Positions 44,456-53,185 of a stretch of 64,000 nt of DNA are shown piece by piece (within the stretch, counting starts at the first letter, position 1; every line of letters begins with the position of its first letter). Origin of the DNA: Blastococcus saxobsidens DD2. GTDB lineage: Bacteria; Actinomycetota; Actinomycetes; Mycobacteriales; Geodermatophilaceae. The translations under genes and the position numbers were made by a program. Under the pieces are notes generated by a model. That model searched no databases. It worked only from the letters and a program-made list of their open reading frames with translations, and was not told the origin of the DNA. The DNA lies in NCBI RefSeq assembly GCF_000284015.1, contig NC_016943.1, positions 3,389,541 through 3,453,540 of the forward strand. The letters run 5' to 3'.

Positions 44456-45517
44456 TCAGCCCGCCCGGGGACCGGACCCCAGCGGCAGCACCGGCGCGGT
44501 CACCGACCGGGACCCGCCCATCCAGGTCGGCAGCAGCAGCATCTTCACGCCCGCTCCCCCGGTGACGACGACGTGCACGTCGGCCGGCGATCCTGCCACC
44601 GCCAGCCCCGAGGCCGCATACGCCGGCACCCCCGCTCGGAAGGCCAGCGATGCTGCGGCGCCCTGCAGCAGCGCCGCACCCTGCTCGAGCAGGAACGACG
44701 CCATCTGCTCGTGGCCCCACCCGTGCATCGACAGCAGCTCCGCCGGCTCGGGCGGCAGCAGCAGGAACTGCTCCCCCAGCGCACCGCGCGCCGGGTCCCC
44801 CATCGCCAGCACCATCCCGGCCATCGCCGCCGCGGCCGGGCCCAGTACCGACGGCGGCTCCCGGTAGCCCTCCCCCGGCAGCACCTCCACGATGGCGCCG
44901 GCCCCGATCACCGTCACCGCGTCGACATCCACCCCGAGACCGCGGCGCTGCGCCAGCGACGGCAGCGGGCGGGCGGCCTCCGCCGTGCAGCAGGTGTACT
45001 TGGCCGGCTGGCCGATCGTCGCCATGTCGGTGACGCCCACGGTCGCGCCCCCGATGCCGGCCAGCGCCATCGAGACGGCCCGCCCGATGCAGGCGTTCGC
45101 CCGGTTCCCCGTCCCGAGCCCGCCCGCGCCCGACGTCATGCCCAGCCGGCGCCCCACCGGCCCGTGCACCAGCACGGCCACCGCCGGCGCGCCGGTCGTC
45201 GTGGAGAGGCCCAGCAGGTTGAACGAGTCGTCCAGCGCCGCCCGGCAGGCGGCGACCACCACCGGCAGCTCATCGGCCCGGCAGCCGGCCAGCACCGCGT
45301 ACCAGGCCACGGCCCGCACGCTCAGCGCCCCGAACAGCGGCGGGACCAGCCCGAGCTCCGCGTCGGGTGCCGCGACCCCGGCCAGCATCGCCTCGAGCCG
45401 GTCCGCGGTCGGCGGCACCACCGGTAGCCCGTCCCCGTGCCCGGCCGCCAGCAGGTCGGCCAGCACCGCGGCCGGGTCCGCGTCGCCGGCGACGAGCGGC
45501 AGACCCGGGTGGGTCAC
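44456..45517 (-). CDS. UGSC-operon protein B, paralogue of the preceding gene
   Basis: Protein of 353 residues from GTG, last gene of the operon and coupled to the preceding gene by a 4-nt overlap. It shares with that neighbour the motifs GDGLPxVPPT, AGCRxxxLPVV, GxxxRANAxIGRAV and GxPAKYxxCxAE, so the two are clearly paralogous. Two conserved cysteines (AGCR and CCTAE) could take part in thiol or selenol chemistry. No known catalytic fold is recognised. The co-translation of paralogues suggests a heterodimer serving the upstream selenoprotein; that is inference. Confidence 0.6.
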   Translation of the reverse strand: MTHPGLPLVAGDADPAAVLADLLAAGHGDGLPVVPPTADRLEAMLAGVAAPDAELGLVPPLFGALSVRAVAWYAVLAGCRADELPVVVAACRAALDDSFNLLGLSTTTGAPAVAVLVHGPVGRRLGMTSGAGGLGTGNRANACIGRAVSMALAGIGGATVGVTDMATIGQPAKYTCCTAEAARPLPSLAQRRGLGVDVDAVTVIGAGAIVEVLPGEGYREPPSVLGPAAAAMAGMVLAMGDPARGALGEQFLLLPPEPAELLSMHGWGHEQMASFLLEQGAALLQGAAASLAFRAGVPAYAASGLAVAGSPADVHVVVTGGAGVKMLLLPTWMGGSRSVTAPVLPLGSGPRAG

Positions 45518-46548
45518 CGCGCGACCGGCACCGCGCGGGACACCGCCGCCGTCGCCCCGAACGACGGGATCCACGCCGAGTGCTTGCCGGCGCCCCCCGC
45601 CACGAGCACGTGCAGCATCTCCGGCCCGGTGCTCACCGGGTACATGTCGCCGTCGGGCTCGACGCCCCAGTCCTCGAACTGCCGGCGGTTCTCCTCGGAG
45701 AACTGGGACACCGGGATCCGCGCCCGCTCCCACAGCCAGTCGCGGATCGCGTCGACCGTCCACCCGTCGCGGTGCAGCGTCGCGGCGTGCTCGGGGCCCA
45801 GCACCAGGAAGTGCGGGCCCTTGACGTACACGTTGTTGGACCCGGCGTCGGTCATCGTCCCGGCGATCGTCATGAGCAAGCCGAGACCCGTGGTCGACCC
45901 GTGGTCGTTGATGTTGTGCGGGCCCTCGCAGGCCGCCACCGTCACCATCGACTCGCCGGGGGCGAACCCGCGGCGCACCGAGAACGGCTCGAACGGGCTC
46001 TCCTCCTCGTTCTCGGCGAAGCACCACGAGTACTTCGCCGGTGTGCCCTGCGTCGACCGGTCCATCGACCCCGGTCGCGCGCCACCGATGTGCGTGGTGA
46101 TCAGCTGCACCGCCCGGCCGATGACGGCGTTGGCGCGCGTGCCCTGCCCGAAGCAGTTGCCGCCGGAGTTTAGACCGACCACCGTCCGCACCGGCCCACC
46201 GACGACGACCAGCGGCGCACACGGGTGGGTCGTCGCGAGCACGCCGTGCAGGTTGTACTCCGGCGCCAGGATCGCCCGCACCGCCGCCAGCACCACCGGC
46301 AGGTCCGCCGGACGGCACCCCGCCATCACCGCGTTCGCCGCGAAGCTCTCCCGGGTCGGCACCAGGCCTGACGGCGGCACCGGCCCCAGGTCCAGGTCGA
46401 TGCCCTCGAGGGCCGCCAGGGCCGCCGCCACCCGCGCCGGGGTGGGCGGCACCGTCGGCAGCCCGTCGCCCCAGCCGCGCTCCTCCGCGGCCTCGTGCCA
46501 GGTCTCCTCGGTCACCCCGGGGAGCTCGATCACCTCCGTGTCGGTCAT
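45514..46548 (-). CDS. UGSC-operon protein A, unknown function
   Basis: Protein of 344 residues: WGDGLPTVPPTPARVAAAL near residue 25, VMAGCRPADLPVV, GTRANAVIGRAVQLITTHIGGA, GTPAKYSWCFAEN. It is homologous to the next gene in the operon but diverged. The ATG overlaps the stop of the thioredoxin reductase-UGSC gene. Conserved Cys in AGCR and SWCFAE and invariant Asn/Arg clusters suggest a catalytic role, but I cannot name a fold. The position between the selenoprotein and its paralogue suggests one functional unit. Confidence 0.6.
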   Translation of the reverse strand: MTDTEVIELPGVTEETWHEAAEERGWGDGLPTVPPTPARVAAALAALEGIDLDLGPVPPSGLVPTRESFAANAVMAGCRPADLPVVLAAVRAILAPEYNLHGVLATTHPCAPLVVVGGPVRTVVGLNSGGNCFGQGTRANAVIGRAVQLITTHIGGARPGSMDRSTQGTPAKYSWCFAENEEESPFEPFSVRRGFAPGESMVTVAACEGPHNINDHGSTTGLGLLMTIAGTMTDAGSNNVYVKGPHFLVLGPEHAATLHRDGWTVDAIRDWLWERARIPVSQFSEENRRQFEDWGVEPDGDMYPVSTGPEMLHVLVAGGAGKHSAWIPSFGATAAVSRAVPVAR

Positions 46549-47993
46549 GCGCTCCCCCGCGCCTCGTCGGCCAGCGGCAGCAGCGCACCGGCGGCGGCCT
46601 CGATCCGCTCGGCCAGCTCCGCCTCGTTCAGCCCACCCACCGGATGTGGCACGACGACCACCCGCGGCGTCACCCGCCGGGCCTTCGCCTGGGCCTCCAC
46701 CAGGGGCAGGAACGACGAGGTCACCAGCAGCGGTGCCACGACGCCACGCTTCTCCAGTTCCACCGAGTCGTGGAGACTCCACGACGAGCACGAGCCCTAA
46801 TCGCCGACGGCCACCAGCACCATCTTGTAGCGCTGCGACAGCCAGTCGATGACGTCCTTGTCGGCGGCGGCCGAGGCGTTGGGCTTGCTGGCGTAGCCGA
46901 TCTCGGGCAGCTCCCAGTGCTCCTGCAGCCGCGCCCCCACCCCGCGCAGCAGCTCGGTGGCGTTCGGCTTCGAGTTGGAGAACAGCGCCACCTCGGACCA
47001 GTCGGCCGTCCCCCCGGCCTGCGTCTCGGCCGCGGAGTCGGCCGGCTGGACGCCGAAGGTCGGATCCACGATCCGCAGCCCCGGGCCTCCCGCGGCGCGC
47101 AGCGCCGCGACCGCCGCGGTACCGGCGGCCTCGCCGTCGGCTGCCGCCGATCGCACGGACTCAGGAGCGCCCGAGCGGGCGTCGCCGGCGACGAACACCG
47201 CCGGCACGGCGGTGCGCACGTCCTCCTCGGTGGGCAGCCGGCCCGACTCGTCCGGAGGCAGCCCGGCGACCAGGGTGTCCGGCCCCCGCCGCCCGACGTA
47301 GGGGAACAGCCCGTCGACCGCCAGTTCCCGCTCGCCCCCGGCGGTGGCGACGACGACACCGGACAGCACGCCCTCGCCCCGCAGCGCCGTGACCGCGGCC
47401 CCGGTCAGCACCTCGACGCGCGCCGAGGCAGCCAGCCGCCCGGCCCGCTCCGCGGACCAGCGTGGCTGCCCGGGCACCAGCACGGTCACCGCGGAGGCGA
47501 CCTCGGCCAGCTCCAGCGCCTCCTCGGCGGTCCACTCGTCGTCGCCGACGACCGCCACCGCCCGCCCGCGGAACAGTGGCCCGTCGCAGCCCGCGCAGGT
47601 GGAGATGCCCCGGCCGACGAGCAGCTCCTCGCCCGGCAGCCCCAGCCGCCCGGGGCCCAGCCCGGTGGCCACCACCACCGCGCCGGCGGTGACCTCGCCC
47701 TCGGAGGTCTCCAGCCGCGGCGGTGCACCCGCGTGCACCCCGGTGACCTCCGCGAACGCCGTCGTCACCCCGGCCGCCTCGGCCTCGGCCACCAGCCGGC
47801 CCATCAGCTCGGCCGAGGACGAGACCTCACCCGGCGCCGGCACGTCGTGCAGCCCGGTCAGGTTCACCAGCTGCCCACCCGGGGCCATCCGGTCGTAGGC
47901 CACCACGCGCAGCCCCGCCTCCGCAGCCACCCGTGCGGCGGTCAGCCCCGCCACCCCGGCACCGACGACGGCGACGTCCCAGTCGCTGCTCAT
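46545..47993 (-). CDS. Thioredoxin reductase-UGSC fusion selenoprotein, UAG-encoded Sec (predicted)
   Basis: Read through one TAG this is a 482-residue protein. Residues 1-~305 are thioredoxin-reductase-like: FAD site VVGAGVAGL at 9-17, redox pair Cys133/Cys136 in STCAGCDGPL, NADPH-side motif VAVVGDDEWTAEEAL and a GDA flavin motif near the end. Residues ~310-482 are a UGSC-family domain: VALFSNSKPNATELLRGV, YKMVLVAVGD, then TAG (codon 399), then GSCSSWSLHDSVELEKRGV and VVVVPHPVGGLNEAELAERI. The TAG sits exactly at the U of UGSC, giving Sec399 next to Cys402. The domain sequence is uninterrupted on both sides and ends in TGA overlapping the next ATG. A gene caller would report a 398-residue flavoprotein and a 72-residue orphan. 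The alternative is a real nonsense mutation or a sequencing error in a Cys/Sec codon. Confidence 0.8.
46767..46785 (-). promoter_or_regulatory. SECIS-like hairpin after the UAG codon
   Basis: On the minus strand GTCGTGGAGTCTCCACGAC folds into a 7-bp stem with loop AGUCU (8 bp if A-U closes the loop). Counting the T of TAG as 1, the loop occupies positions 22-26, with G23 and U24. In E. coli fdhF the SECIS loop GGUCU also occupies 22-26 after UGA. The hairpin lies inside the coding sequence, as bacterial SECIS elements do. Confidence 0.7.
46797..46799 (-). other. In-frame UAG predicted to encode selenocysteine
   Basis: The minus-strand codons around it read GTC GGC GAT TAG GGC TCG TGC, i.e. 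V-G-D-[UAG]-G-S-C. In the UGSC family this position is selenocysteine or cysteine, normally encoded by UGA, UGC or UGU. UAG is not one base from UGC or UGU, so a simple point mutation from a Cys codon does not explain it; a change from the Sec codon UGA would require two substitutions. Confidence 0.75.
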
Positions 47994-49069
47994 CCGCTCA
48001 CCAACCCCGTCGAGATCCGCGGCCACAGCTCGTCGGCGCCGGCGCCGGCCAGCCGCCGCCCGAGTTCCCGGTTCCAGTACCGCTCGCTGCCGAACTCGTC
48101 CCGCCACGACCACAGCCGCCGGGTCAGCTGGCCGAGCTCGTACTCCTTGGTCATGCCGATCGCGCCGTGCGCCTGGTGCGCGGCCCGGGCGGCGACGGTC
48201 GCCGCCTCGCTCGCGGCCGCCTTGGCCGCCGCCACGTCGAAGAAGCTCGGGTCCGGGCGCGCGTTGAGGGCCGCCACCTCGGTGGCCAGCCCGGCCAGCT
48301 GGGCCTCCTCGGCGATCGTCACCAGATGGGCCTGCACCGCCTGGAACCGCGCGATCGGCCGGCCGAACTGCTCCCGCTCGCCGGTGTAGCGCACGGTCAG
48401 CTCGCTCACCCGGGCCAGCGCCCCGGCGATCAGCGCCGCCCGGCCCAGCGCCCCGCGCAGCCGCAGCGCCTCGCCGTCCACGCCCTCCGGCGCCGGGGCG
48501 ACCACCTCGTCGGACAGCGGGACGTCGTCCCACGTCAGCGTGTCCCGCGGTTCGAGGGCGAGGTTCCGGCCCGGCGTCACCTCCGCCGCCGCGGTCGGCG
48601 CGGAGACGACGGAGCACTCGCCGTCGACGGAGGCCAGCAGGACCACACGGGTGCTCCGCCCGCCCCACGGCACCCGCTGCAGCCGCGCGGTCAGCCGCCA
48701 GGCGCCGGGGCCTCCGGACAGCTCGACCACGTCGCCGGGCCGGCCCACGGCCACGGACACCGGGCCCTCGGGCAGCTCCAGCCCGGCCGCGGCGAGCGCC
48801 CATCCGCCGAGCAGGCCCGCCTCGGCGAGCGGCACCGGCGCGGCGAACCGGCCGGCCGCCGCCAGGAGCGCACAGGCGTCGGCGACGTCGCCTCCCGAGC
48901 CACCGGCCTCCTCGGGCACCGAGACGGAGGGGAAGCCGGACTCCACCAGTGCCGACCACAGCCGCTCGCTCCAGCCGGTGCCCTCCGCCGCGACGACGTC
49001 CTCCGGGGTGGACAGGTTGCGGAACAGGCCGGTGGCGACCTCGGTGAGCATCGTCCGGTCGTCACTCAT
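47990..49069 (-). CDS. Acyl-CoA dehydrogenase, small/partner subunit type
   Basis: Protein of 359 residues, divergent member of the acyl-CoA dehydrogenase family: TGEREQFGRPIARFQAVQAHLVTIAEEAQLA (C-terminal domain start) and AHQAHGAIGMTKEYELGQLTRRLWSWRDEFG. It lacks the usual GGTNEI-type catalytic end. Such short members pair with a full-length partner as alpha2beta2 enzymes in steroid side-chain and other bulky acyl-CoA oxidation. Both ends overlap neighbours by 4 nt, consistent with fixed stoichiometry with the next dehydrogenase gene. Confidence 0.85.
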   Translation of the reverse strand: MSDDRTMLTEVATGLFRNLSTPEDVVAAEGTGWSERLWSALVESGFPSVSVPEEAGGSGGDVADACALLAAAGRFAAPVPLAEAGLLGGWALAAAGLELPEGPVSVAVGRPGDVVELSGGPGAWRLTARLQRVPWGGRSTRVVLLASVDGECSVVSAPTAAAEVTPGRNLALEPRDTLTWDDVPLSDEVVAPAPEGVDGEALRLRGALGRAALIAGALARVSELTVRYTGEREQFGRPIARFQAVQAHLVTIAEEAQLAGLATEVAALNARPDPSFFDVAAAKAAASEAATVAARAAHQAHGAIGMTKEYELGQLTRRLWSWRDEFGSERYWNRELGRRLAGAGADELWPRISTGLVSG

Positions 49070-50202
49070 GAGCCCAGCCCCTTCGCGGCCACGGAACGCA
49101 GGATCTCGGTCGTGCCACCACGCAGCGTGTACCCCGGTGAGTTGAGGACCGCCTCGGCGAGCAGCCGCTGGAAGAGCGACCCCGACCCCTGGTCGACCTC
49201 CATCTCGGCCGCCACGCGCAGCGCCTCGACCAGGTCCTGCTCGAACCGGGTGCCGATCTCCTTCACCAACGCCGCCTCGACCGCGGGCGCCTGACCGGCG
49301 TCCAGGGCGCGCGCCACCGACAGCGACAGCTGCCGGATCGCCCAGAACCGGGCGGCGAACCGTCCGACCACCGTCGCGTCACCGTCATCGACCGCCGCGC
49401 CGGCCTTCCGCAGGAACTCCCGCAGCACGGGGAAGGTCGACAGCCAGCGATCGGGACCGCTGCGCTCGTAGGCCAGCTCGCTGGTCACCTGCTTCCAGCC
49501 CGAGCCGACCTCGCCGAGCACCATGTCGTCGGGCACGAAGACGTCCTCGAGGGCGACCTCGTTGAAGTGGTGCGAGCCGTCGATGAAGGGGATCGGCGAG
49601 ACCGTCACCCCGGGCCCGCGCAGGTCGACGATCAGCTGGGAGAGGCCGACGTGCTTCTTGCCGTCCTCCATCGGCGAGGTCCGGCACAGCACGGCGAAGA
49701 AGTGGTTCAGGTGCGCCTCGCCGGTCCAGACCTTGGTGCCGGTGACCGTCCAGCCACCCTCCACCTTGGTCGCACGGGTGCGCACCGAGGCGAGGTCCGA
49801 GCCGGAATCGGGCTCGCTCATCCCGAGGGAGAAGAAGATCTCGGCCGCCGAGATGCCCGGCAGGAACGTCCGCCGCTGCTCCTCGGTGCCGTAGTGCAGC
49901 AGGGTCGGGCCGGTCTGCCGGTCGGCGACGAAGTGCGCGCCGATGGGCGCGCCCGCGGCAAGGAGCTCCTCGGCGACGATGAACCGCTCGACCGCGGTCC
50001 GCCCGTGCCCGCCGTACTCCGGGGGGATCGCCATGCCCACCCAGCCCCGGGCGGCGAGCTTGCGGGAGAAGTCCGGATCGTGCCGGGCGGCGAAGCCCAG
50101 CGCGGGAAAGTGGTCGGCGGGCAGCTCCGCGGCCAGGAAGTCGCGCACCTCGGCGCGCAACGACTCCTCGGCCGGGCTGAGGGTGGTGGCGCCGAAGTGC
50201 AC
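49066..50202 (-). CDS. Acyl-CoA dehydrogenase, large subunit type
   Basis: Protein of 378 residues from GTG with AGGAGG 6 nt upstream. Typical motifs: FFSLGMSEPDSGSDLASVRTRA, VTGTKVWTGEAHLNHFFAVL, and the C-terminal SPGYTLRGGTTEILRSVAAKGLG. It resembles the larger subunit of heteromeric FadE enzymes. Paired with the following gene it should form one dehydrogenase acting on the CoA thioester made by the operon's ligase. The substrate is probably not a simple fatty acid; that is inference from the partner type. Confidence 0.9.
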   Translation of the reverse strand: MHFGATTLSPAEESLRAEVRDFLAAELPADHFPALGFAARHDPDFSRKLAARGWVGMAIPPEYGGHGRTAVERFIVAEELLAAGAPIGAHFVADRQTGPTLLHYGTEEQRRTFLPGISAAEIFFSLGMSEPDSGSDLASVRTRATKVEGGWTVTGTKVWTGEAHLNHFFAVLCRTSPMEDGKKHVGLSQLIVDLRGPGVTVSPIPFIDGSHHFNEVALEDVFVPDDMVLGEVGSGWKQVTSELAYERSGPDRWLSTFPVLREFLRKAGAAVDDGDATVVGRFAARFWAIRQLSLSVARALDAGQAPAVEAALVKEIGTRFEQDLVEALRVAAEMEVDQGSGSLFQRLLAEAVLNSPGYTLRGGTTEILRSVAAKGLGS

Positions 50203-50267
50203 GGCGGGCCTCCTGGGTCGGGGGGGTGTCCCGCCGGACCGCCCGCACGGGCGGTCCGGCGGGGAGG

Positions 50268-51005
50268 TCAGGCGGTCTCGCGCCGCCGCTGGGACCACAT
50301 CTGGGTGGCCCGCTCGAAGTGCAGTGCGGCCTCCCAGCCGATCCCGGGCGGGCCGGCCTCGGTGCGGAAGGAGCGGGTGGCCTCGCGGGCCAGCTCCGGG
50401 TCCTTGGCCGCGCGCCCGGCGAGCTCCAGCGCGAACTCCTCGACCTGGTCGTCGGGCACGGCCTTCCAGGCCAGGCCGATCTCGGCGGCGCGGACACCGT
50501 CGATCTCCTCGCCGAACAGCCCCATCGCGGCGGTGGCCTCGCGGCCGGCCGTCCGGGAGCTGATCGTGAAGTAGCCGCCGCCGGGGTGCAGGCCGATGCG
50601 GAGGAAGCCGGCCATCAGCCGCGCAGTCTCCGAGACGATCCGCAGGTCGGTCGCGAGCGCCAGGTTGATGCCGGCGCCGACGGCGGCACCGCGGACGGCG
50701 GCGATCGTCGGCACCTGCAGCGTCCCGACCCGGCGGAACGCCTGGTAGACCGCCCCGAGCTCCTTGTAGGTCTTGTCCTCGGCCTGATCGGAGCCCGCCG
50801 TCCAGCGCCGGCGATCGGCACCGGAGCAGAACGTGCCGCCCTTGCCCAGGACGACGGCGGCACCGATGGCCGGGTCGCTGTCGACGTCGTCGCAGAGCTC
50901 CGACAGCTGCATCCCCATCTCGGGCGTCAGCCCGTTCTTCACCTCGACGTTGTCGACGGTGAGGACGGCGATGCCGCCCTGCTTCTCCAGGTGTACCTGT
51001 CCCAC
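50268..51005 (-). CDS. Enoyl-CoA hydratase/isomerase family protein
   Basis: Protein of 245 residues with the crotonase fold: VVLGKGGTFCSGADRRRW (oxyanion hole), VPTIAAVRGAAVGAGINLALATDLRIVSE, and FLRIGLHPGGGYFTISSRTAGREATAAMGLFGEEI. Gly-Gly-Gly-Tyr replaces the usual second catalytic Glu region (typically PE.G), so it may be a hydrolase or isomerase rather than a hydratase. GTG start with a purine-rich AGGCAGGA upstream. Second gene of the operon. Confidence 0.88.
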   Translation of the reverse strand: MGQVHLEKQGGIAVLTVDNVEVKNGLTPEMGMQLSELCDDVDSDPAIGAAVVLGKGGTFCSGADRRRWTAGSDQAEDKTYKELGAVYQAFRRVGTLQVPTIAAVRGAAVGAGINLALATDLRIVSETARLMAGFLRIGLHPGGGYFTISSRTAGREATAAMGLFGEEIDGVRAAEIGLAWKAVPDDQVEEFALELAGRAAKDPELAREATRSFRTEAGPPGIGWEAALHFERATQMWSQRRRETA

Positions 51006-51037
51006 GGGGGAAGTCCTGCCTCTCTGTGTCGGTGGTG

Positions 51038-53185
51038 CTATTCGCCGAGCGGGGCGCGGTGCCCGGTGGTGCGTACCAGCACGTCGACGGCGGTCGCCCC
51101 ACCGCCCCGCGGCCCGACGATCAGGGGGTTGAGCTCGAACTCCGCGAGCCGCGCGCCACCGGCGACGGCGGCCTGCGACAGCCGCACCACCGCGTCGACG
51201 GCGGCGGTCACGTCGGCCGGTGGGGCGCCGCGGAAGCCGGCGAGCAGCGGCCAGGCGCGCAGGCCGCGCAGCATCGTCCAGGCGCGCTCCGGGCTCACCG
51301 GGGCGAGCCCGGAGGCGAGATCGCGGTACAGCTCGGTGGTGACCCCGCCGAGGCCGACGGTGATCACCGGCGGGAAGCCGTCCCGGCCGGCGGTCGCGGC
51401 GAGGATCAGCTCGGTGCCCGGCGGGATCAGCTCCTGCACCAGCACGCCCTCGACGTCGGGCACGTGGTGCCGGCGGGCGGCCTCGACCAGCTCGGTGAAG
51501 ACCGCCGCCGCCTCCTCGGCCGCGACGCCCACCCGCACGCCGCCGACCTCGCTCTTGTGCGCCAGGTCGCCGGCGGCGAGCTTCAGCACGCCCGGCCCCG
51601 GGAGCGCCGCCACCGCCTCCCGCGCGGCCTCCGGTGTGGTGACCAGGGTCGAGGACGGCTGGGCGATGCCGATCGCGCGCAGCAGCTCCGGCCCGTCGAC
51701 GACATCGGCAGCGAGCAGCTCGCGCACCCGGGCAGCCGGCACCTCGGGCGCCGGCGGCAGGGCCGGCGCGGTGCCCCGGTGCGCCGGCGGGGCCATCCGG
51801 GCGGCGGCACGGGCCACGTCGCCGACCGCGCCGAAGACCGGGATCCCCGCCTCGCGGAACACCCGCCGTCCCTCGGTGGTGAGCTCCTGGCCGGCGATCC
51901 AGCCGACCAGCAGCGGGACGGGGAGCTTGGCCGCGGTCGCCACGAGGTCCTCGGCCAGCCGCGCGCCGGCGTCGCCGACCACCATCGTCACGAAGACCGC
52001 GATCGCGTCGACCGAGGGGTCGTCGGCGACGATCCGGCACACGTCGCCGAACGCGTGCGCCCCCCGGTTGAACAGCTGGGCGGTGACGTCGACGGGGTTG
52101 GCCAGCGCACCGAACGCCGGGATGAGCGGGCGCAGCCGGTCCTGGGTGTCGGCGGACAGCTCGGGCATCTCCAGGCCGAGGTCCTCGCACTGGTCGGCCG
52201 CGAGGCTGCCGGCGCCGCCCGAGGTGGTGACGACGGCGACCCGCCGCCCCTCCGACCGCTTGCCGGTGGACAGCACCGCGGCCACCGACAGCAGCTCGTC
52301 GATGTCGTGGACCAGCACCACGCCGTGTTCCTCGGAGGTGAGCACGAAGGCGACGTCGTCACCGAGCATGGAGCCGGTGTGGCTGGCCACCGCGCGCCGT
52401 CCGGCGCTGGACCGCCCCGAGCGGAGCACCACCAGCTGCTTGTCCGTCTCGCGCGCCCGGCGGGCGAGCGTGGCGTAGGCCTGCCCGTCGTCGGTGGCCT
52501 CGACGTACAGCATCAGGACCCGGATGGCCGGGTCCTCCAGCAGCTCCTGCGAGACCTGCACCAGGTCCAGGTCAGCCTGGTTGCCCGTGCTGGCCCAGAA
52601 CGACAGGCCCAGGCCCATGTCGGTGGCCAGGTCGAGCACCGAGCCACCGACCGCCCCGCTCTGCCCCACGTAGGCCACGCCGCTGTCGGAGGTCAGCGGC
52701 CGGTCGGCCGCCGCGGTGAACGTGGCCACCACCCCGGTCGGCGCGTAGAGGAAGCCCTGGCAGTTGGGGCCGAGCACCCGGACGCCGGTCTCCCGCGCCA
52801 CCGCCGCCAGGCGCTGCTGCAGGGCCAGCCCCCCGGGCCCGACCTCGGCGAAGCCGGAGGCGTAGACGACGGCGGCCGAGGCCCCCGCTGCCGCGGCCTG
52901 CCGGATGGCGTCCTCCACCCGGTCGGCGGCCACGAGCACGAGCACCAGGTCGACCGGCCCCGGGACGTCGGCCAGCGTCGGATAGCACCGCTGCCCGACC
53001 AGCTCCTCGTAGTTCGGGTTCACCGGGTAGACGGCGCCGGAGTACCCGTGCTCGACCAGGTAGCGCAGCGGCCGGGACATGAGGTTCTCCGAGCGGCCGG
53101 AGATGCCCAGCAGTGCGATCCCCCGCGGACGCAGCAGCGCGCCGAGCCCCTCGGGAGCACCGGACTCGGTCGACGGCACGGTCAC
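51038..53185 (-). CDS. NDP-forming acyl-CoA ligase (acetate-CoA ligase family)
   Basis: Protein of 715 residues. An N-terminal CoA-binding Rossmann domain (RPRGIALLGISGRSENL, VLGPNCQGFLY) is followed by two succinyl-CoA-ligase-like domains (VAYVGQSGAVGGSVLDLA; LRSGRSSAGRRAVASHTGSMLG, with the phospho-His in SHTGS). A C-terminal ATP-grasp part follows (LKLAAGDLAHKSEVGGVRVGV; LVQELIPPGTELILAATAGRDG). It makes an acyl-CoA with release of ADP and phosphate. First gene of the seven-gene operon; GTG start with GGAAGG upstream. It is divergent from a TetR gene. Confidence 0.9.
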   Translation of the reverse strand: MTVPSTESGAPEGLGALLRPRGIALLGISGRSENLMSRPLRYLVEHGYSGAVYPVNPNYEELVGQRCYPTLADVPGPVDLVLVLVAADRVEDAIRQAAAAGASAAVVYASGFAEVGPGGLALQQRLAAVARETGVRVLGPNCQGFLYAPTGVVATFTAAADRPLTSDSGVAYVGQSGAVGGSVLDLATDMGLGLSFWASTGNQADLDLVQVSQELLEDPAIRVLMLYVEATDDGQAYATLARRARETDKQLVVLRSGRSSAGRRAVASHTGSMLGDDVAFVLTSEEHGVVLVHDIDELLSVAAVLSTGKRSEGRRVAVVTTSGGAGSLAADQCEDLGLEMPELSADTQDRLRPLIPAFGALANPVDVTAQLFNRGAHAFGDVCRIVADDPSVDAIAVFVTMVVGDAGARLAEDLVATAAKLPVPLLVGWIAGQELTTEGRRVFREAGIPVFGAVGDVARAAARMAPPAHRGTAPALPPAPEVPAARVRELLAADVVDGPELLRAIGIAQPSSTLVTTPEAAREAVAALPGPGVLKLAAGDLAHKSEVGGVRVGVAAEEAAAVFTELVEAARRHHVPDVEGVLVQELIPPGTELILAATAGRDGFPPVITVGLGGVTTELYRDLASGLAPVSPERAWTMLRGLRAWPLLAGFRGAPPADVTAAVDAVVRLSQAAVAGGARLAEFELNPLIVGPRGGGATAVDVLVRTTGHRAPLGE

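Follow-up and report, generated by a model that had tools for sequence, protein, structure and literature searches.

Selenocysteine (Sec) programmed by UAG has been described in the Geodermatophilaceae. The available text of PMC5330540 credits Mukai et al. 2016 with three genomes of this family that combine a tRNA-Sec of anticodon CUA with UAG-containing selenoproteins of the FDH and UGSC-motif types, and it also records a UAG-encoded AhpC from B. saxobsidens. Sec encoded by UAG in Blastococcus is likewise mentioned in the accessible part of PMC5133445. A sequence-only reading of the DNA studied here had pointed to earlier reports of this kind for Geodermatophilus and Blastococcus, and the two sources, to the extent of their available text, bear this out. 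The UGSC proteins appear in the available text of the GOS survey (PMC2398784) as a major selenoprotein family, fused in one case to a domain named Unknown_1.

The TrxR-UGSC gene analyzed in the present study (Table 1) resembles the systems ascribed to Mukai et al. 2016 in the accessible text of PMC5330540, given that its genome encodes a CUA tRNA-Sec and carries UAG in both UGSC and FDH-type genes. It differs from those reports in belonging to a different genome and in being a TrxR-UGSC fusion. With the UGSC family (PF24696; NF041046; PMC2398784, as far as its text was available), the gene shares the motif, the domain and the same hairpin after the Sec codon. Unlike that family, it uses UAG instead of UGA as the Sec codon, is fused to a TrxR-like part and falls below the NF041046 cut-off. 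Its N-terminal part resembles thioredoxin-disulfide reductase (TIGR01292) in its pyridine nucleotide-disulphide domain and CxxC motif (CAGC) but is followed by a C-terminal UGSC domain and, at 188.6 bits, stays below the cut-off of 343.45; it is hence termed only TrxR-like. Judging from the accessible literature, the principle of UAG-encoded Sec, the UGSC type included, is already known for the Geodermatophilaceae, and the TrxR-UGSC gene is a further example. The present analysis adds a family-wide anticodon count, sister genera with UCA, one genome (G058) that encodes two tRNA-Secs, and a partner protein, all of which are absent from the available text of PMC5330540. In the open-licence literature, as far as its text was available, no description was found of a UGSC-partner association or of a dual UAG/UGA code.

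Table 1. Features of the TrxR-UGSC locus in window coordinates (the window is the whole stretch of 64,000 nucleotides that was analyzed).
Feature	Position	Strand	Remarks
Partner B, tandem paralogue of A	44456..45517	minus	GTG start overlaps TGA of A; 36% identical to A
Partner A, unnamed	45514..46548	minus	344 aa; ATG overlaps end of UGSC gene; relative in 38/38 UGSC loci
TrxR-UGSC gene	46545..47993	minus	482 codons including TAG; ATG at 47993, ends with TGA; PF07992 and PF24696 above cut-off
UGSC domain, residues 308-470	46584..47072	minus	Sec399 (predicted) and Cys402; PF24696, alignment
Predicted SECIS-type hairpin	46767..46785	minus	8 pairs; starts 14 nt after first base of TAG
In-frame TAG, predicted Sec codon 399	46797..46799	minus	U of UGSC; translation and orthologue codons
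FAD/NAD(P) pyridine nucleotide-disulphide oxidoreductase domain, residues 6-287	47133..47978	minus	Pyr_redox_2, PF07992
CAGC redox motif, Cys133 and Cys136	47586..47597	minus	Translation
Acyl-CoA dehydrogenase-like gene	47990..49069	minus	Stop overlaps TrxR-UGSC start; NF050027 84.4 bits, below cut-off 450
Frame with second acyl-CoA dehydrogenase-like gene in C-terminal part	49066..51102 (frame, not gene start)	minus	All models below cut-off
Gene resembling ADP-forming acyl-CoA synthetases	51038..53185	minus	Below curated cut-offs; ordinary TAG stop

The TAG (46799-46797) is the sole stop within a minus-strand frame of 482 codons. It is preceded by 398 codons and followed by 83 sense codons, and a TGA (46547-46545) closes the frame at an ATGA junction with the ATG of the next gene. 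Translation through the TAG yields ...VAVGD-U-GSCSSWSLHDS... The sequence-only reading had placed the TAG at the U of UGSC in an otherwise continuous frame and had given the same lengths and the same overlapping TGA; the translation, together with conservation of the TAG in 19 of 19 family orthologues, confirms this description. A sequencing error as the source of the TAG is rejected because the same TAG is present in 19 genomes. The frame is already open for 754 codons ahead of the TAG, well beyond the start of the TrxR-UGSC gene. Long open frames arise by chance in high-GC DNA, so that openness of the frame says little in itself, and the case for Sec therefore rests on conservation and on the machinery of the genome.

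The Pfam UGSC domain (PF24696) spans the TAG with 123.3 bits against a cut-off of 25, which qualifies the protein as a carrier of this domain. The equivalog model UGSC_fam (NF041046) gives 111.7 bits, below its curated cut-off of 125, and the protein is therefore not assigned to that equivalog. Solved thioredoxin reductases rank top among the fold matches of the predicted protein model. In sequence, the protein combines an N-terminal flavoprotein domain of TrxR-like type, which contains CAGC, with a C-terminal UGSC domain. We take Cys133 and Cys136 of CAGC to have a redox role, as in thioredoxin reductases. The full-length product had been read as a thioredoxin reductase-UGSC selenoprotein, an interpretation that the present analysis supports.

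Is the TAG an ordinary stop? The product would then be a TrxR-like protein of 398 residues, and the last 83 codons would be a relic. In keeping with such a reading, the genome contains the RF1 gene (prfA), and TAG remains an ordinary stop elsewhere. Among 32 crude gene calls, which are no substitute for a proper annotation and account for 65% of the window, three end with TAG, 29 with TGA and none with TAA, and one of the three TAG-ended calls belongs to the TrxR-UGSC gene cluster. The relatives of the gene nevertheless make an ordinary stop very improbable. Nineteen full-length TrxR-UGSC orthologues were found among 112 family genomes, and every one of them has TAG at the same codon with 83 open codons downstream. 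A scan of named genomes, whose family loci overlap with those of the 112-genome set, identified 38 loci that encode UGSC relatives. All 15 Geodermatophilaceae loci (Blastococcus, Modestobacter and Geodermatophilus, the closest named relatives) carry TAG, and all 23 loci outside the family (Alphaproteobacteria, Streptosporangiales, Chloroflexi, SAR324 and more) carry TGA. Cys also occurs at this position in relatives. The UGSC motif and the residues downstream of the Sec site are kept, and a matching tRNA-Sec exists in the genome, which further argues against termination.

The sequence-only reading had proposed this comparison of codons at the UGSC position and would have taken a lack of purifying selection downstream of the TAG as evidence against Sec. 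The downstream sequence is conserved. In comparisons with eight family orthologues, dN/dS is 0.05-0.54 after the TAG and 0.21-0.42 before it, lower after than before in five comparisons and higher in three (0.54 vs 0.31 for L023, 0.46 vs 0.39 for L028 and 0.53 vs 0.42 for L036). By this measure, the parts before and after the TAG are both under constraint. A low downstream synonymous rate is likely due in part to constraint on the RNA, that is, on the hairpin.

The genome (4.88 Mb, one contig, 100% complete) was searched with the Rfam tRNA-Sec model, which produced six matches, two of them above the family cut-off. The best match has 65.3 bits (cut-off 47) and the anticodon CUA and is the only tRNA-Sec of the genome; the remaining five are tRNA-Ser, -Tyr and -Leu according to ARAGORN. 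The CUA tRNA-Sec sits between selD, on the minus strand, and selA-selB in one cluster, and selA, selB and selD each score above the NCBIfam cut-offs. The machinery that had been named as the first thing to look for is thus all present, and the situation that would have spoken against Sec, namely no Sec machinery or a tRNA-Sec with UCA only, does not apply to a genome whose single tRNA-Sec has CUA. ARAGORN labels the same CUA tRNA as tRNA-Pyl, which would fit a reading of the UAG as pyrrolysine. We consider pyrrolysine barely credible, given the Rfam score and position of the tRNA, the TGA or Cys found at the site in relatives, and a profile search of the genome in which PylS_Cterm, at 20 bits, fell far short of its cut-off of 178.15.

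The same predicted hairpin follows 12 TAG and 19 TGA codons in an alignment of 31 sequences, which took in 12 of 20 TAG loci and 19 of 23 TGA loci, and the GU at the start of its loop is invariant. Of the cells in the 27 distinct rows, 95.8% are paired; the outermost pair is broken in seven rows, and two-sided changes occur at three of the eight pairs, in four cells. None of 500 shuffles, which ignore the relatedness of the sequences, reaches the hairpin on any of five measures, and all versions slid along the alignment score lower. Its folding energy is unremarkable (z of -1.64, with 12 of 200 shuffles equally good), z varies between -0.67 and -3.36 over the nine sequences folded, and the Rfam SECIS families do not match it. 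The predicted hairpin is thus supported by conservation and covariation, not by folding energy.

A further alternative is that the CUA tRNA acts through EF-Tu as a general amber suppressor, so that UAG would be read everywhere and the hairpin would be unneeded. CUA is indeed a suppressor anticodon. However, SelB and RF1 are both retained, the hairpin is identical after TAG and TGA, and a TAG terminates a gene of the same cluster, so general suppression is highly unlikely. On the evidence given under each of them, ordinary termination, pyrrolysine and general amber suppression are all rejected. Of the features of a UAG-programmed Sec system, those visible in the genome, namely the in-frame UAG, the CUA tRNA-Sec, selA, selB and selD, and the predicted hairpin, were found. 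We propose with high confidence, on genomic evidence, that the UAG of the TrxR-UGSC gene is read as Sec by the single CUA tRNA-Sec, likely with SelB and the predicted hairpin. By analogy with the known bacterial pathway, SerRS would make seryl-tRNA-Sec, which SelA would convert into Sec-tRNA using selenophosphate from SelD. SelB would then bring the Sec-tRNA to UAGs that have a hairpin, and RF1 would terminate at all other UAGs. In the work of Mukai et al. 2016, 75Se labelling was reportedly used.

In addition to the TrxR-UGSC gene, the genome contains at least three more UAG-interrupted selenoprotein candidates. They comprise a second UGSC gene (L017), an FdhA-like gene (L234) and a weak AhpD-like match of 26 bits (L272; minus strand, genome position 1293245) with TAG in the CxxU motif NNCFY-U-LLAH. 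Ordinary pipelines had been expected to split such genes. Among 2852 UGSC matches, 96 short clusters were listed, and 94 of these 96 end with ALAD, which immediately precedes the Sec site, in agreement with that expectation; annotation cuts UGSC genes at the Sec site. Three metagenome UGSC proteins (P0122, P0123 and P0126), each from one contig shorter than 1 kb, have Arg, Trp and Gln in place of Sec, which are either read errors at a stop codon or sense-codon variants.

How did the codon change within the family? The tRNA-Sec could be typed in 108 of the 112 family genomes: 100 have CUA only, seven have UCA only (genera g5-g7) and one (G058) has both, so that CUA occurs in 101. The four untyped genomes gave either no Rfam match at 1e-8 (G067, G097 and G098) or two weak matches (G071). 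Among 40 genomes from other families of the same order, 24 have a UCA tRNA-Sec, which in G230 is accompanied by a CUA form. Of 397 genomes of the order, 76 match a pattern for the CUA form; these are G230 and 75 members of the Geodermatophilaceae. The CUA tRNA-Sec of G230 (G230:C194; L214 / L264) lies in a draft genome of another family and is either contamination or a second dual case.

The codon varies with the anticodon across relatives at both UGSC and FdhA-like sites. Nineteen FdhA-like matches in eight family genomes, none of which reaches the TIGR01591 cut-off, contain one TAG in six, one TGA in two and no stop in 11. In the five genomes in which the codon was read, it is TAG in G000, G004 and G047, which have CUA, and TGA in G072 and G074, which have UCA; the TAG and TGA groups are two different FdhA types by their flanking residues. 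In a SelA tree of 38 rows, rooted at midpoint only, a branch supported at 100/100 separates the 20 CUA rows from all others, next to the UCA members of the family. The tree omits 20 of the 58 loci with a typed tRNA-Sec for a missing or short SelA. These 58 loci represent 56 genes because L214/L264 are one place in G230 and L050/L237 are one place in G070, the latter appearing twice in the tree. Furthermore, the CUA tRNAs share a changed anticodon-stem pair relative to the UCA tRNAs of the family. A single switch would be the simplest reading of the SelA tree and the tRNAs, and the UCA sister genera likely represent the state before it.

G058 (100% complete, 1% contamination) has the CUA tRNA-Sec of the family, located approximately 1.4 kb from selB, as well as a divergent UCA tRNA-Sec at 1173-1263 of contig C17 (L138 = G058:C17:1-12000). 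The first 6 kb of this contig have a GC content of 62-66%, compared with 70-79% for the rest, the last 133 bases excepted. The region near the UCA tRNA contains an AhpD-like gene (PF02627) whose CxxU motif includes a TGA, together with another frame that is interrupted by a TGA and for which no Pfam match was found. A hairpin is predicted after each of the two TGAs; compared with 200 shuffles, neither has the better fold (46 and 80 were as good). Only one SelB above the cut-off was found in G058, and its FdhA-like match carries one TAG. These observations suggest two Sec codons in one cell. Taken together, the comparisons are compatible with a tentative scenario, which we rate as possible though somewhat short of probable, in which UGA switched to UAG once in the Geodermatophilaceae, with the tRNA and the genes changing together and the hairpins remaining unchanged, and G058 later gained a UGA-reading tRNA-Sec and UGA selenoprotein genes; a cell with one SelB would then decode both codons as Sec.

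What might the TrxR-UGSC protein do? Partner A has no Pfam or NCBIfam family, and a fold comparison, in which the class I fumarase fold was considered, gave no clear solved relative. Its family has 5157 database matches and near-invariant Cys78 and Cys176, and relatives occur not only at all the UGSC loci examined but also beside the second UGSC gene of the genome. The Unknown_1 domain mentioned in the available text of the GOS survey may be this partner. In two loci, UGSC and partner form a single frame with an internal TGA (L193, 2911-4617; L196, 2905-4605). In the 23 loci outside the family, UGSC mostly occurs as a small gene of its own; a TrxR-like gene lies directly upstream in seven of these loci and nearby on the other strand in an eighth (L180). 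The two kinds of fusion, UGSC with a TrxR-like domain here and UGSC with the partner in L193 and L196, suggest a relay from TrxR through UGSC to the partner. Electrons would pass from NADPH via FAD to Cys133/Cys136 of the TrxR-like domain, then to the Sec399/Cys402 pair, and finally to partners A and B. The partners may in turn act on a putative substrate within an acyl-CoA catabolic operon. An acyl-CoA pathway is the likely setting, given that two acyl-CoA dehydrogenase-like genes lie upstream in 14 of the 15 family loci.

The conserved partner offers a concrete interaction to test for the widespread UGSC selenoproteins. With CUA genomes and UCA sister genera in one family, ideas on the sequence of events during a codon switch can be tested by comparing them. 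The UAG Sec code is a lineage trait of the Geodermatophilaceae, and the complete genome analyzed here unites the genomic parts of a natural amber Sec code.
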